Assembly (NCBI GenBank): GCA_029884335.1
Contig: JAOUIA010000010.1
Location: 1-64,000, forward strand
Direction of reading: 5' to 3'
Origin: Betaproteobacteria bacterium
Lineage (GTDB): Bacteria; Pseudomonadota; Gammaproteobacteria; Burkholderiales; Casimicrobiaceae
Length of the DNA stretch: 64,000 nt
Part shown: one piece after another, positions 1,617-47,060 of the stretch
How positions within the stretch are numbered: position 1 is the first letter of the stretch
Layout: every line of letters begins with the position of its first letter
The notes under the pieces: model-generated
Databases searched by the model: none
The model's input: only the letters and a program-made list of their open reading frames with translations
What the model was told of the DNA's origin: nothing
Made by a program: the position numbers and the translations under genes

Positions 1617-3540
1617 TCGGGTCGGTCGGCGCGCACATGATGACGCTGTCCGGGCCGTAGCCTTCGCCGATCCAGGCCGGGTCGGCGCGCATCTCGTTGC
1701 GCAGCGTCACCTCGGGCGTGTAGCGGTGGTTCAGCAGGCCCGGGTTGAAGAAGCGCCACAGCGCTCGCGTCCCCGCAGGGCACGCCCCGCTCACCGGGTG
1801 GGGCAGCGCGATGTGGAACACCGCCGGGCTCTCGTGGATCCAGGTGCCCGCGTACCGCTCGCCCACGCGCGCGCACTCGGCAGGGTCGGCCGAGTAGAAG
1901 TGCGAGTTGCCGACCGCGGGCGTGAGGTAGTAGCGGCACACCGGGCTCGCGCCGGGACGCGGCGCGTCGTAGGCGAGGAAGCGCACGCCGGTGCGCTCCC
2001 AGCCGGCGATGGCGCCGGAGTCGAGCGCTTCGACCTCGCCCGGGTCGGCCGTGATGAAGTAGTGCCGCAGCCCGGCGTGGTAGTACTCGACGACAGCCCT
2101 GCGGCCCTCCGGGTTCGGCGCGTCGGGCGTGAGGTACTGGCGCACGAGCGGCAGCATGACGTCGAGCCGCGAGTAGTAGTCGGGGCCGGAGCGGTTGCTG
2201 CACGAGGCCTCGCCGCCGAAGAGCGCGCCGCGCAGCTCGTAGTAGCCGCCCTCCGGCAGGAACGTGTACAGCCCCGAGCCCGACGAGCCGACTTCCGTGG
2301 TGCCCTGGCTCCACTGCACCCTGACGAAGCTCGAGCCGTCCGAATACGACTGGTAGCCCGTCGTCGAGCCCTGGCTGAACTTCGCGAGGTCGCCGTTCGG
2401 GTGGTGCAGGCCCGTGGCCACGGCGAGCGCCGGCACCGGCTCGGCGCGCCACGCCGAAAAGAACACGCCCGCGGGAGGCGCCCGGTTCAGGCGCAGCAGC
2501 GCGTAGTCCCAGTCGTCGCTCCGCGCGAGCAGCGCCGCGCCGCCACCCTGCAGCACGTACGCCGGCGTCGCGGTGCTCCCGCAGGATTGCGCCCTGAAGA
2601 ACCAGTAGACGCTGATCGTCCCCGCCTCGAACGCCGACTCGATGCAGTGGGCGGAGGTCAGGAGGTATGGCACGAACGAGTTCACCGAGTCGTTGAGCAG
2701 CGCTGCGCTGCACGCGTACGTGAACCCGTTGCGGTCGCCGAACACGATCTTGCCGAGGCTGTTGGCCGCCTGCTGCAGGGCGGTCGACGGCGACACGCAC
2801 GCAACGTCCGCGTTGCACGTTCCCGACATCCCAATGTCGGAGAGTCGCTTCGCCATCGCGTCGCGCAGGGCGACGCCGGCCGCCGTCAGGCGCGACGCCG
2901 TGCCGAGGACGAGCGCACCGTCGGCGATCGACGCGCCGGCCGGCGCGCTCACCTCGACGATCGCGGTGTCGCCCTCGAGCACAGGGGTCGCGAACGCGCC
3001 GTCCCGAGCGACCGCACCGGCGATCTCGTCCGCCGGGTAGGGGCCGTGCACCGTTGCGCCCGGCGCGCTGCCGGCGAAGCGCAGCGCGAACCCGGCGCCC
3101 TGCACCGAGAGGGCAAGCCGCAGGCCCGCCGCGCCCGGCGAGCGCACTTCGACGCGCGCCGTCCGCGCCCCGTCGGCGGACTCGTGCCACGCGAGCCCTG
3201 CGAGCGCCACCGCGCGAGAGGACTCCGGCACCTCGCGCGGGAAGCCGATCACGAGGGGGCGCTGCTTCGACGGCGACGCTGCGTCGGCCCGCGCGGCCGC
3301 TGCAGCACCTCCCGCCCGCTGCGCACGGAATTCGGTCGCCGGTTCGGGCAAGTCGATGCGCAGCGCGGGGGTGGAAACCACGGCAAGCGTCGCCACGGAC
3401 TTCTGTGCGACCGTCGCCGGGCGGTACTCGGCCGGCGGCACCGCATTCACGGCGCCGGTAACGCTCGCCGCGCCCGCCGTCCCCATCCCCAGTGCCGCCG
3501 CCGCGATCAAGCGGCCGATTCGCGCCAATCGTTGTTCCAT
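1609..3540 (-). CDS. Secreted trypsin-like serine protease with C-terminal DUF5648 region
   Basis: About 643 residues from the ATG of MEQRLARIGRLIAAAALG, which opens a signal peptide (basic n-region, Ala-rich core, cleavage probably near GAAS). The ORF-track start, 29 codons upstream, would bury the signal peptide and is rejected. The middle of the protein has the chymotrypsin-fold triad: His in TSAHC, Asp in DDWDYALLRL and Ser in GSSGSGL, resembling lysyl-endopeptidase-type (Achromobacter protease I) enzymes. The last 160 residues contain two units of the YYHAGLRHYFITADPGE type (also FYSADPAE), as in DUF5648, which is thought to act in binding or surface retention. The enzyme is expected to be exported. 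It stands alone, 50 bp downstream of rfbD. Confidence 0.8.
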   Translation of the reverse strand: MEQRLARIGRLIAAAALGMGTAGAASVTGAVNAVPPAEYRPATVAQKSVATLAVVSTPALRIDLPEPATEFRAQRAGGAAAAARADAASPSKQRPLVIGFPREVPESSRAVALAGLAWHESADGARTARVEVRSPGAAGLRLALSVQGAGFALRFAGSAPGATVHGPYPADEIAGAVARDGAFATPVLEGDTAIVEVSAPAGASIADGALVLGTASRLTAAGVALRDAMAKRLSDIGMSGTCNADVACVSPSTALQQAANSLGKIVFGDRNGFTYACSAALLNDSVNSFVPYLLTSAHCIESAFEAGTISVYWFFRAQSCGSTATPAYVLQGGGAALLARSDDWDYALLRLNRAPPAGVFFSAWRAEPVPALAVATGLHHPNGDLAKFSQGSTTGYQSYSDGSSFVRVQWSQGTTEVGSSGSGLYTFLPEGGYYELRGALFGGEASCSNRSGPDYYSRLDVMLPLVRQYLTPDAPNPEGRRAVVEYYHAGLRHYFITADPGEVEALDSGAIAGWERTGVRFLAYDAPRPGASPVCRYYLTPAVGNSHFYSADPAECARVGERYAGTWIHESPAVFHIALPHPVSGACPAGTRALWRFFNPGLLNHRYTPEVTLRNEMRADPAWIGEGYGPDSVIMCAPTDPIT

Positions 3541-26800: not shown

Positions 26801-26950
26801 CCCGGCGAGGGGCCCCGGGCGAAGCACGGGGATCGACGGCAAGACGCCGACGCGCGAGTGCTACGCACTGCGCCGCGCGTCCAAGGAGGCGTCCGCGTGA
26901 GCGCCTCCCTCACCCCCGGCCCCTCTCCCGCGATGCGGGAGAGGGGAGAT
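26801..26950. repeat. Composite repeats between livG and livF, entering livF
   Basis: 26801-26843 is the third copy of the CCGGCGAGGGGCCCC...GGGGATCGACGGCAAG repeat. 26920-26946 is a perfect palindrome, CCCCTCTCCCGC-GAT-GCGGGAGAGGGG, preceded by CCTCACCCCCGG. The palindrome is inside the livF reading frame. The same C-rich palindrome is seen in aceF and at the end of waaA. Confidence 0.75.
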
Positions 26951-41191: not shown

Positions 41192-43861
<2,670 letters not shown>

Positions 43862-43872
43862 GAGACGCGGCG

Positions 43873-45591
43873 ATGGCGACGATCGAAGTGAAGGTGCCCG
43901 ACATCGGCGGCTTCGCCGACGTGCCGGTGATCGAGGTGTTCGTCAAGCCGGGCGACGTGGTCGCGCCCGAGGACCCGCTCGTCACGCTCGAGTCCGACAA
44001 GGCGACGATGGACGTGCCCTCGCCCGCGGCGGGCAAGGTGACGGCCGTGGCGGTGAAGGTCGGCGACAAGGTGAGCGAGGGCAGCGTCGTGCTCACGCTC
44101 GACTCGGCGGGCGCCGCGGTGGCGAAGCCCGCGGCCACGCCCGCGTATGCGCCTCCGCCCGAGGGCGATCCCGCGGCTGCGGCCGAACGCGCGCCGCGCG
44201 GCGAGAAGGGCGGCGCCGACGCGCCGGGAGAAGGCGCGACATCCACGCCTCCCGCCGGCGCGACGGTCGAGGTGCGCGTTCCCGACATCGGCGACTTCAA
44301 GGACGTTCCGGTGATCGAGGTGTTCGTGAAGCCCGGCGACGTTGTGAACGTCGACGACCCGCTGGTCACGCTGGAGTCCGACAAGGCGACGATGGACGTG
44401 CCGAGCCCCCAGGCCGGCACCGTGCAGGGCGTGCGCGTGGCGGTCGGCGATCGCGTCAGCGAAGGCACGGTGATCGTGTCGCTGTCCGCACCCGGCGTGC
44501 CGGGCGCGAAGCCTGCTGCTGCCACGGTCGCGGCGCCCTCGCCCCAGCCCTCGCCCGCAAGCGGGAGAGGGAGCACAGCCACCGCCGCTCCCCCCTCGCC
44601 CGCGGCAGCGGGAGAGGGGGCGGGGGTGAGGGCCGCAGCGCCCCCCGCGCCAGCGGGAGAAGGGCCGGGGGCGAGGGCAAGCGCCGCGCACGCCTCCCCC
44701 ACCGTCCGCCGCTTCGCGCGCGAACTCGGCGCCGACCTCGCGCAGGTGACCGGCACGGGTCCGAAGGGCCGCATCACGCAGGAGGACGTGCAGGCGTTCG
44801 TCAAGCGCGCGCTCGGCGCCCCTGCGCCCCAGCCCGCCGCGACGGCGGGCGGCGGCACGCTCAACCTGCTGCCCTGGCCGCAGGTCGACTTCGCGAAGTG
44901 GGGCGAGGTCGAGGCCAGGCCGCTGTCGCGCATCCGGAAGATCTCGGGCGCGAACCTCGCGCGCAACTGGGTGATGATCCCCCACGTCACGCAGTTCGAC
45001 GAGGCGGACGTCACCGACCTCGAGGAGCTGCGCGTCGCGCTCAACAAGGAGAACGAGAAGGCGGGCATCAAGGTGACGATGCTCGCGTTCCTGATCAAGG
45101 CCGCCGTCGCCGCGCTGCGCCGCTTCCCGGACTTCAACGCCTCGCTCGACGGCGACAACCTCGTCCACAAGAAGTACTTCAACGTCGGCTTCGCCGCCGA
45201 CACGCCGAACGGGCTGGTGGTGCCGGTGCTGAAGAACGCCGACCGCAAGGGCGTGCTCGAGATTGCGAAGGAGATGGGCGAGCTCTCCGCGAAGGCGCGC
45301 GAGGGCAAGCTCGGGCCGGCCGACATGCAGGGCGGCTGCTTCACGATCAGCTCGCTCGGCGGCATCGGCGGTACCGCGTTCACCCCGATCATCAACGCGC
45401 CCGAGGTGGCGATCCTCGGCGTGTCGCGCAGCGCGCTCAAGCCCGTCTGGAACGGCAACGCGTTCGCGCCGCGGCTGATGCTGCCGCTGTCGCTCTCCTA
45501 CGACCACCGCGTGATCGACGGCGCCTCCGCCGCGCGCTTCACGTCGTTCTACGCGTCGCTGCTCGCCGACATGCGCCGCGCGCTCCTCTGA
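43873..45591 (+). CDS. aceF: Pyruvate dehydrogenase E2 (dihydrolipoamide acetyltransferase), two lipoyl domains
   Basis: 572 residues. Two lipoyl domains (residues about 1-80 and 130-215), each with the lipoylation site ESDKATMDVPSP. The peripheral subunit-binding domain reads SPTVRRFARELGADLAQVTGTGPKGRITQEDV (about 275-310). The catalytic acetyltransferase domain ends with SYDHRVIDGASAARF, giving the HxxxDG active site. The second linker (about residues 221-268) consists largely of translated palindromic repeats (SPQPSPASGRGS, PAAAGEGAG, PAPAGEGPG) and is still Ala/Pro/Gly rich, as flexible E2 linkers must be. It moves acetyl groups to CoA. Confidence 0.96.
   Translation: MATIEVKVPDIGGFADVPVIEVFVKPGDVVAPEDPLVTLESDKATMDVPSPAAGKVTAVAVKVGDKVSEGSVVLTLDSAGAAVAKPAATPAYAPPPEGDPAAAAERAPRGEKGGADAPGEGATSTPPAGATVEVRVPDIGDFKDVPVIEVFVKPGDVVNVDDPLVTLESDKATMDVPSPQAGTVQGVRVAVGDRVSEGTVIVSLSAPGVPGAKPAAATVAAPSPQPSPASGRGSTATAAPPSPAAAGEGAGVRAAAPPAPAGEGPGARASAAHASPTVRRFARELGADLAQVTGTGPKGRITQEDVQAFVKRALGAPAPQPAATAGGGTLNLLPWPQVDFAKWGEVEARPLSRIRKISGANLARNWVMIPHVTQFDEADVTDLEELRVALNKENEKAGIKVTMLAFLIKAAVAALRRFPDFNASLDGDNLVHKKYFNVGFAADTPNGLVVPVLKNADRKGVLEIAKEMGELSAKAREGKLGPADMQGGCFTISSLGGIGGTAFTPIINAPEVAILGVSRSALKPVWNGNAFAPRLMLPLSLSYDHRVIDGASAARFTSFYASLLADMRRALL
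44537..44678. repeat. Three C-rich palindromic repeats within the aceF linker
   Basis: Copy 1: CCCTCGCCCCAGCCCTCGCC then CGCAAGCGGGAGAGGGAGC (44537-44573). Copy 2, opposite orientation: CTCGCCCGCGGCAGCGGGAG then AGGGGGCGGGGGTGAGGG (about 44588-44632). Copy 3, degraded: GCGCCAGCGGGAGAAGGGCC then GGGGGCGAGGGC (44639-44678). The same palindrome type occurs at 26920 and 11091. All three copies keep the aceF frame open. Confidence 0.8.
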
Positions 45592-45602: not shown

Positions 45603-47060
45603 ATGACGACCGCCGATGCGAAGCCCGACGTCGAGTGCGACGTGCTCGTGCTCGGTGCGGGGCCGGGCGGCTACAGCGCGGCGTTCCGCGCCGCCGACCT
45701 GGGACTGAAGACCGTGATCGTCGAGCGCTACGGCACGCTGGGCGGGGTGTGCCTCAACGTCGGCTGCATCCCGAGCAAGGCGCTGCTGCACGTCGCCGCG
45801 GTGATGGACGAGGCGAAGGCGATGGCCGCGCACGGCGTCGCGTTCGGCGCACCCGCCGTCGACCTCGCGAAGCTGCGCGCCTGGAAGGACAAGGTCGTCG
45901 GCAAGCTGACCGGGGGCTTGGCCGGCATGGCCAAGGGCCGCAAGGTCGAGGTCGTGCGCGGCGTGGGCCAGTTCCGCGACGCGCACCACGTCGAAGTCGA
46001 GTTGACGACAGGGACCGGGCAGGACAAGACCGGCGCGACGAAGGTGGTGAAGTTCGCGCAGGCGATCATCGCCGCGGGCTCGCAGGTCGTGCGCCTGCCG
46101 TTCATCCCCGAGGATCCGCGCATCCTCGACTCGACTTCCGCGCTGGCGCTCGCGGACGTGCCCAAGCGCATGCTGGTCCTCGGCGGCGGCATCATCGGCC
46201 TCGAGATGGGCACCGTCTACTCGACGCTCGGCGCGCGCATCGACGTGGTCGAGATGATGGAGGGGCTGATGCCTGGCGCCGACCGCGACCTCGTGCGCGT
46301 GTGGGAGAAGGTCAACAAGCCGCGCTTCGACCGCGTCATGACGTCGACGCGCACGACGAAGGTCGAGGCGAAGCCCGACGCGCTGTGGGTCACCTTCGAA
46401 GGCGCCAACGCGCCGGCCGAGCCGCAGCCCTACGACGCCGTGCTGATGAGCGTGGGCCGCGCGCCGAACGGGAGGAAGATCGCGGCGGAGAAGGCGGGCG
46501 TGGCCGTCACCGACCGCGGCTTCATCCCCGTCGACTCGCAGATGCGCACGAACGTCGCGCACATCTTCGCGATCGGCGACGTCGTCGGGCAGCCGATGCT
46601 CGCGCACAAGGCGGTGCACGAGGGCCACGTCGCCGCCGAGGCCGCGGCCGGGCAGAAGAGCCACTTCGACGCGCGCGTCATCCCCTCCGTCGCCTACACC
46701 GACCCCGAGATCGCGTGGGTGGGGATGACGGAGGACGAGGCGAAGGCGAAGGGCGTCGCGATCGAGAAGGGACTGTTCCCGTGGGCCGCGTCCGGCCGCG
46801 CCATCGCCAACGGGCGCGACGAGGGGCACACCAAGCTGCTGTTCGACGCGGCCACGCACCGCATCGTCGGCGGCGGCATCGTCGGCACGCACGCGGGCGA
46901 CCTGATCGGCGAGATCGCGCTGGCGATCGAGATGGGCGCCGACGCGGTCGACATCGGCCACACGATCCACCCGCACCCGACGCTCGGCGAGTCGATAGGG
47001 CTGGCTGCCGAGGCCGCGGAAGGCACCTGCACCGACCTTCCCCCGGCGCGCCGCAGGTGA
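45603..47060 (+). CDS. lpdA: Dihydrolipoamide dehydrogenase (E3 of pyruvate dehydrogenase)
   Basis: 485 residues. Reoxidises dihydrolipoamide with FAD and passes electrons to NAD. FAD motif VLVLGAGPGGYSAAFRAADLG, redox-active disulfide GGVCLNVGCIPSKALLH, NAD motif MLVLGGGIIGLEMGTVYSTLGA, FAIGDVVGQPMLAHKAVHEG, and the dimer-interface catalytic His-Glu in HTIHPHPTLGES. No lipoyl domain at the N-terminus, unlike some betaproteobacterial E3s. Stop lies 3 bases before repeat copy C. Confidence 0.97.
   Translation: MTTADAKPDVECDVLVLGAGPGGYSAAFRAADLGLKTVIVERYGTLGGVCLNVGCIPSKALLHVAAVMDEAKAMAAHGVAFGAPAVDLAKLRAWKDKVVGKLTGGLAGMAKGRKVEVVRGVGQFRDAHHVEVELTTGTGQDKTGATKVVKFAQAIIAAGSQVVRLPFIPEDPRILDSTSALALADVPKRMLVLGGGIIGLEMGTVYSTLGARIDVVEMMEGLMPGADRDLVRVWEKVNKPRFDRVMTSTRTTKVEAKPDALWVTFEGANAPAEPQPYDAVLMSVGRAPNGRKIAAEKAGVAVTDRGFIPVDSQMRTNVAHIFAIGDVVGQPMLAHKAVHEGHVAAEAAAGQKSHFDARVIPSVAYTDPEIAWVGMTEDEAKAKGVAIEKGLFPWAASGRAIANGRDEGHTKLLFDAATHRIVGGGIVGTHAGDLIGEIALAIEMGADAVDIGHTIHPHPTLGESIGLAAEAAEGTCTDLPPARRR

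Follow-up and report, generated by a model that had tools for sequence, protein, structure and literature searches.

In the aceF gene of a Betaproteobacteria bacterium (Burkholderiales; Casimicrobiaceae), the DNA that encodes the flexible linker in front of the E3-binding domain contains three units of a GC-rich palindrome that is dispersed through the same genome. We propose, with a probability of roughly 0.8, that mobile TM/PIT repeat units were copied into this linker, of which they would now encode about 48 residues. The proposal is drawn from sequence comparison: the repeats form a multi-copy family, they are absent from the closest relative, G052, they are read in frame and lie in a linker, and comparable insertions recur in other lineages, in the linker of the E3 subunit and in MetG. 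Coordinates refer to the window, the whole stretch of 64,000 nucleotides that was analysed.

Repeat units in the AceF linker

The aceF gene (43873..45591, plus strand, 572 amino acids) encodes dihydrolipoamide acetyltransferase, the E2 subunit of pyruvate dehydrogenase (PDH), and is part of an aceE-aceF-lpd cluster with aceE at 41192-43861 and lpd (E3) at 45604-47060. Pfam matches in the open reading frame (PF00364 twice, PF02817 and PF00198) give the order of two lipoyl domains, E3-binding domain and catalytic domain (aa 345-571), which together with the adjoining aceE and lpd identifies the product as an E2. The second lipoyl domain (44269..44484, plus strand, aa 133-204), predicted with high pLDDT, is connected to the E3-binding (peripheral subunit-binding) domain (44689..44793, plus strand, aa 273-307; PF02817) by a linker at 44485..44688 (plus strand, aa 205-272), delimited by the Pfam boundaries and by AlphaFold. 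In E2 proteins such linkers are extended, flexible Ala/Pro segments required for domain movement (review PMC6270654).

The repeat units fill positions 44536-44677, in the order forward, reverse, reverse. Unit 1 (44536..44571, plus strand) consists of CCCTCGCCCCAG CCCTCGCCCGC AA GCGGGAGAGGG, with GC common to both arms, and is read as PSPQPSPASGRG. Unit 2 (44593..44632, minus strand) has the organization CCCTCGCCCGC GGCA GCGGGAGAGGG GGC GGGGGTGAGGG and is read as PSPAAAGEGAGVR. In unit 3 (44641..44677, minus strand), read as PPAPAGEGPGARA, the left arm has decayed and the right arm, GCGGGAGAAGG, is followed by GGGGGCGAGGG; arms with one mismatch are found at 44653-44663 and 44667-44677. The frame through the entire region is AAPSPQPSPASGRGSTATAAPPSPAAAGEGAGVRAAAPPAPAGEGPGARAS. 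Because the Pfam domains end at residue 204 and resume at residue 273, the repeat-encoded residues 222-269 lie entirely inside the linker, and because pLDDT is below 50 across residues 209-242 and 244-269 (AlphaFold, 34-sequence alignment), this stretch is predicted to be disordered. An earlier note on this DNA had described three palindromes in mixed orientation that supply protein to the E2 linker. The three units, their mixed orientation and their in-frame translation within the linker were all borne out, but complete palindromes account for only two of the three.

A linker rich in Pro, Ala and Gly could in principle acquire palindromes by convergence, through codon choice in a genome of 72% GC and with no insertion at all. 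Isolated half-motifs such as CCCTCGCCC do occur in ordinary linkers, and the 19 half-sites that were called coding in a census of 1.95 Mb of the genome are chance occurrences. However, of 200,000 synonymous sequences generated for the AceF repeat peptide from the codon usage of its own genome, none attained either the 7 half-motifs (simulated maximum 5) or the 2 palindromes (simulated maximum 1) observed in aceF, which argues that the repeats are not a product of chance. Likewise, synonymous resampling over 274 linkers gave 0.31 expected palindromes compared with 16 observed. No other part of the gene is as codon-atypical as the linker, which uses, for example, AGA (0.8% of Arg codons), and the rare codons AGA, GGA, GCA and CCA sit exactly at the positions dictated by the repeat. 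Moreover, the species that carry linker repeats track genomic copy number, as described below. We consider convergence by composition largely refuted and very improbable.

It is also extremely improbable that the arrangement is an assembly or binning artefact, with repeats collapsed or misjoined in a fragmented genome of 120 contigs. Assemblies typically break at dispersed repeats, and several matches lie near contig ends, but the reading frame is intact from the first unit to the last, and other assemblies, among them isolate genomes such as that of Ramlibacter monticola, independently show the same arrangement.

By computed Watson-Crick folding, the region 44525-44690 forms a single structure (-123.9 kcal/mol and z -5.9 as RNA; z -4.9 as single-stranded DNA), in which unit 1 pairs with unit 3 around unit 2, and in vitro the TM motif adopts a triplex (PMC4666352). 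The repeats might therefore act as nucleic acid, with a strong mRNA hairpin or DNA triplex that slows the ribosome or polymerase between domains and aids folding or sets the E2:E3 stoichiometry, the peptide being a by-product. Yet any inverted repeat folds strongly; the linker concerned, the number and the orientation of the repeats vary by species, and most species have none. Rfam returned no family above threshold, only chance-level matches. We regard such a role as quite improbable.

The first linker of AceF, between the lipoyl domains (44148-44257), contains a decayed-looking arm, GCCGGGAGAAGGCG, in a stretch that a codon HMM calls non-coding. This arm may be what is left of an earlier repeat insertion that has since eroded.

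The repeat family and its copies in the genome

The genome (3.66 Mb) contains 156 matches to CCCTCNCCC-N2..14-GGGNGAGGG versus 7 for a reversed-pattern control, and 31 of 100 genomes of the order carry the unit, which here has a length of about 36-40 bp. Judged by its arms and loops, the aceF repeat belongs to the known TM/PIT family of intrastrand-triplex motifs (CCCTCTCCC / GGGAGAGGG / GGGTGAGGG), with 3610 occurrences in 262 proteobacterial genomes and a tie to genome instability (Holder et al., 2015; PMC4666352). The definition of TM/PIT requires a C-rich 9-nt stem, a 3-6 nt loop, a G-rich 9-nt stem, a 3-nt loop and a second G-rich 9-nt stem, with at most one mismatch. The unit, for example CCCTCACCCCAACCCTCTCCCGC..GCGGGAGAGGG, fits this pattern. 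On the minus strand, unit 1 corresponds to the definition as CCCTCTCCC-GCTTGC-GGGCGAGGG-CTG-GGGCGAGGG, with loops of 6 and 3 nt and one stem mismatch; unit 2 conforms only when loops of 8 and 5 nt, or longer stems, are allowed. The units share with TM (TMECO)/PIT the succession of C-rich arm, loop, G-rich arm, short loop and second G-rich arm, and the dispersed, multi-copy occurrence, often as pairs of opposite orientation (PMC4666352). Unlike the published motif, they also show GC-extended stems (reaching 11 bp or more) and second loops of 3-5 nt, and whereas the copies described in PMC4666352 occupy non-coding sites in E. coli, units are translated here in aceF and metG.

Another group of short palindromes, the GTAG/CGTC REPs, occurs as single elements or inverted pairs and is translated within conserved genes of many bacteria, including Thauera (Di Nocera et al., 2013; PMC3733652). 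The units described here differ from these elements in lacking the tag, and they show no clear sign of RAYT dependence. By sequence inspection, no GTAG/CGTC tag adjoins units 1-3, and the number of Y1_Tnp matches (one in this genome, none in that of G039, which carries aceF repeats) does not follow the repeat. Membership in the RAYT-linked REPs is therefore unsupported. A RAYT is not favoured as mover of the repeat, since the Y1 transposase copy number is out of step with the repeat number.

The location of copies was determined in the 1.95 Mb census, covering about half of the genome, with a home-made seven-state codon HMM, which took the place of a frame classifier based on flank codon scores that was too noisy. 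The earliest stretches were picked around known repeat sites, which raised the repeat density and should leave the coding/intergenic split unbiased. Although 12.8% of bases were called non-coding (about 87% coding), only 4 of the 99 palindromes, in 2 of the 54 clusters, lie within genes, and the remaining clusters are intergenic or at stretch ends. The two in-gene clusters, in aceF and in metG (methionyl-tRNA synthetase), are both in frame and both in interdomain linkers. This is the result, for 1.95 Mb, of the count of in-frame and out-of-frame copies that the earlier note had suggested genome-wide.

In metG, two in-frame TM units (SPSPPAPLPADAGRGGVAAPLSRTAGEGPGVRES; L157:2849-2942, contig C32) are located in the linker that leads into the C-terminal tRNA-binding domain. 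This linker comprises 45 residues with repeats here and 28 residues without repeats in G052, so that both conserved genes, aceF and metG, contain in-frame insertions that are absent from the orthologue in G052. Repeat-like arms are present in metG of G039 as well. Further candidates obtained from tblastn matches of the MetG linker were rejected, as they proved to be intergenic arrays. A large intergenic array in the same genome (contig C111, L272:1585-1831) packs 15 TM arm motifs into about 250 bp, and its units follow one another at regular intervals of about 51 bp.

Linker repeats in related bacteria

The closest relative by E2, G052 (80% identical), has an ordinary Ala/Pro linker of similar length that contains no palindrome, which indicates that the repeat-bearing aceF linker DNA is not ancestral. 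In most other relatives, from a set of assemblies that includes many metagenome bins, the linker is likewise an ordinary Ala/Pro segment of comparable length that lacks repeats, and a minority have linker repeats of their own, differing in position and number. The alignment with related species that the earlier note had called for thus gives absence from G052 and most relatives and a variable arrangement in the others. The aceF linkers diverge too fast for the comparison to show an exact unoccupied site together with a target duplication.

In a survey of about 105 linkers, TM units were also seen in the aceF linkers of G039, G045 (in part) and the G049/G041/G044 clade. The linker of the lipoyl domain of E3 (lpd) contains them in G049, G041, G044, G029 and L095, and the first E2 linker in L095 and G041. 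Other palindromes are found at the same kind of site: those of Rhodoferax (L112) and Ramlibacter (L114) are of the CCCTCCCCC type, and in G059 TTCGACAAGCTCAG-type repeats form an inverted pair whose arms are the same in the E2 and the E3 linker. The latter family has about 36 matches in the G059 genome and none in G000. On a tree of the E2 catalytic domain, parsimony gives 6-7 changes for the presence of TM units and 9 for any palindromic repeat, gains and losses mixed. These comparisons indicate that related bacteria gained linker repeats several separate times, including in E3 (Lpd) and from other repeat families.

At least 20 genomic copies are present in 5 of 6 linker-repeat carriers and in 2 of 17 non-carriers (Fisher p = 0.003, kinship ignored). 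Exceptions are G045, which carries an insertion with one strict genomic copy, and G001 and G038, which are repeat-rich with an empty linker. According to the earlier note, conservation of the linker DNA in species without intergenic palindromes would speak against an origin from repeats; this was largely not what we found, the carriers being mostly repeat-rich.

Survey of the E1, E2 and E3 genes of 107 aceE-aceF-lpd loci revealed 17 coding palindromes, all of which are located in linkers, which make up 7.3% of the coding bp. Sixteen were scored as linker by script; the remaining one, in L029, was script-scored as domain, but inspection places it in the E3 linker. Of 32 C-rich arms, 29 are translated as Pro-Ser-Pro and none in the Leu-giving phase, and G-rich arms mostly give Gly-Glu-Gly (23 of 36); shared ancestry makes p-values for these phase and linker counts too small.

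In G059, the inverted TTCGACAAGCTCAG-type pair, 79 bp apart, is located on the reverse strand of L023 at 1958-2059 and 3253-3354, in the E2 and E3 linkers. Its occurrence in both suggests that it passed from one gene to the other by gene conversion or duplication. The second E2 linker and the E3 linker of G049 and G044 are 73% identical, compared with 68-69% for the lipoyl domains that they join. This is a hint of linker homogenisation between the genes; parallel insertion of the same repeat pair would look much alike. The aceF linker of L107 reads SGEQRAAISDQLSASSEQSSAISNQPSASGERE and looks like a different linker, derived from tandem repeats.

Tolerance of translated repeats in flexible tethers

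We infer that mobile palindromes insert broadly, throughout the genome, and that selection removes most insertions within genes. The copies that survive in genes would be those in frame, in a disordered, length-tolerant linker and in a phase rich in Pro, Ser, Ala and Gly (PSPxPSPASGRG or SPLAGEGxGEG). We propose that these copies survive because the encoded peptide still works as a flexible tether for the swinging arm. The earlier note had called the reading of the repeats in the linker tolerated and perhaps useful. The results support tolerance, and usefulness stays a "perhaps".

A stronger role, in which the repeats were favoured because they lengthen or re-tune the arms, and spread between E2 and E3 by gene conversion, seems unlikely to us. 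It would fit the 6-9 tree changes within one small set of linkers, the greater length of carrier linkers (median 59 aa versus 49 aa in the others), and the E2/E3 linker likeness in G049, G044 and G059. However, neutral landing followed by purifying selection predicts this pattern equally, MetG has another function and shows the same pattern, and most relatives manage without repeats. We lean against, but put forward as a speculation, an order-wide extension: dispersed palindromes may constitute a standing source of linker modules, with low-charge frames pre-adapted to flexible tethers, and insertion together with gene conversion may have rebuilt the PDH arms time and again and made those of E2 and E3 more alike, with functional consequences for arm length.

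In-frame selfish palindromes are known from genes of Rickettsia (RPE) and Wolbachia, and also between genes (reviewed in PMC2229807). The units described here resemble them in being inserted in frame into conserved protein genes with further copies between genes. RPE enter many kinds of genes, whereas every in-gene copy found here lies in an interdomain linker, and the RPE family appears unrelated in sequence. For the GTAG/CGTC REPs, the main text of PMC3733652 stresses DNA replication and repair genes, with dihydrolipoyl enzymes, hinges and disorder unmentioned there. The AceF linker shares place and role, as flexible tether from lipoyl to binding domain, with the Ala/Pro linkers of 2-oxo acid dehydrogenase E2 proteins (PMC6270654) and differs from them in its shift to Pro/Ser/Gly with some charge and in its probable origin from dispersed repeats. 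Our literature search, which covered papers outside subscription, found no paper that links palindromes with E2 or interdomain linkers; the apparent recurrent, in-phase occupation of PDH swinging-arm linkers by several repeat families seems to be without description in the searchable literature.

Dispersed repeats would thus have provided ready-made protein material in the arm of the essential pyruvate dehydrogenase. Until now, in-frame palindromes in bacteria have mostly been seen as sporadic accidents that the host tolerates. In the present case a single class of site, the disordered tether of a multidomain enzyme, appears to have been hit repeatedly across Burkholderiales by repeats of at least two or three families, in every case within a linker and predominantly in one reading phase. 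This leads to a rule that can be tested: a repeat persists in a gene where disorder and frame permit it. The linkers also form a natural series of E2 arms of varied length and chemistry. For annotation, strings such as PSPQPSPASGRG or SPLAGEGGGEG are a warning that repeats have been translated.

At window positions 26897-26945, a TM unit, CCCTCACCCCCGGCCCCTCTCCCGCGATGCGGGAGAGGGG, extends over the start of a gene for an ABC-transporter ATPase, right after a GTGA stop/start overlap. The N-terminus of the ATPase may be SLTPGPSPAMRERGD, provided by the unit; alternatively, translation may in fact begin at an ATG within or just past the repeat.
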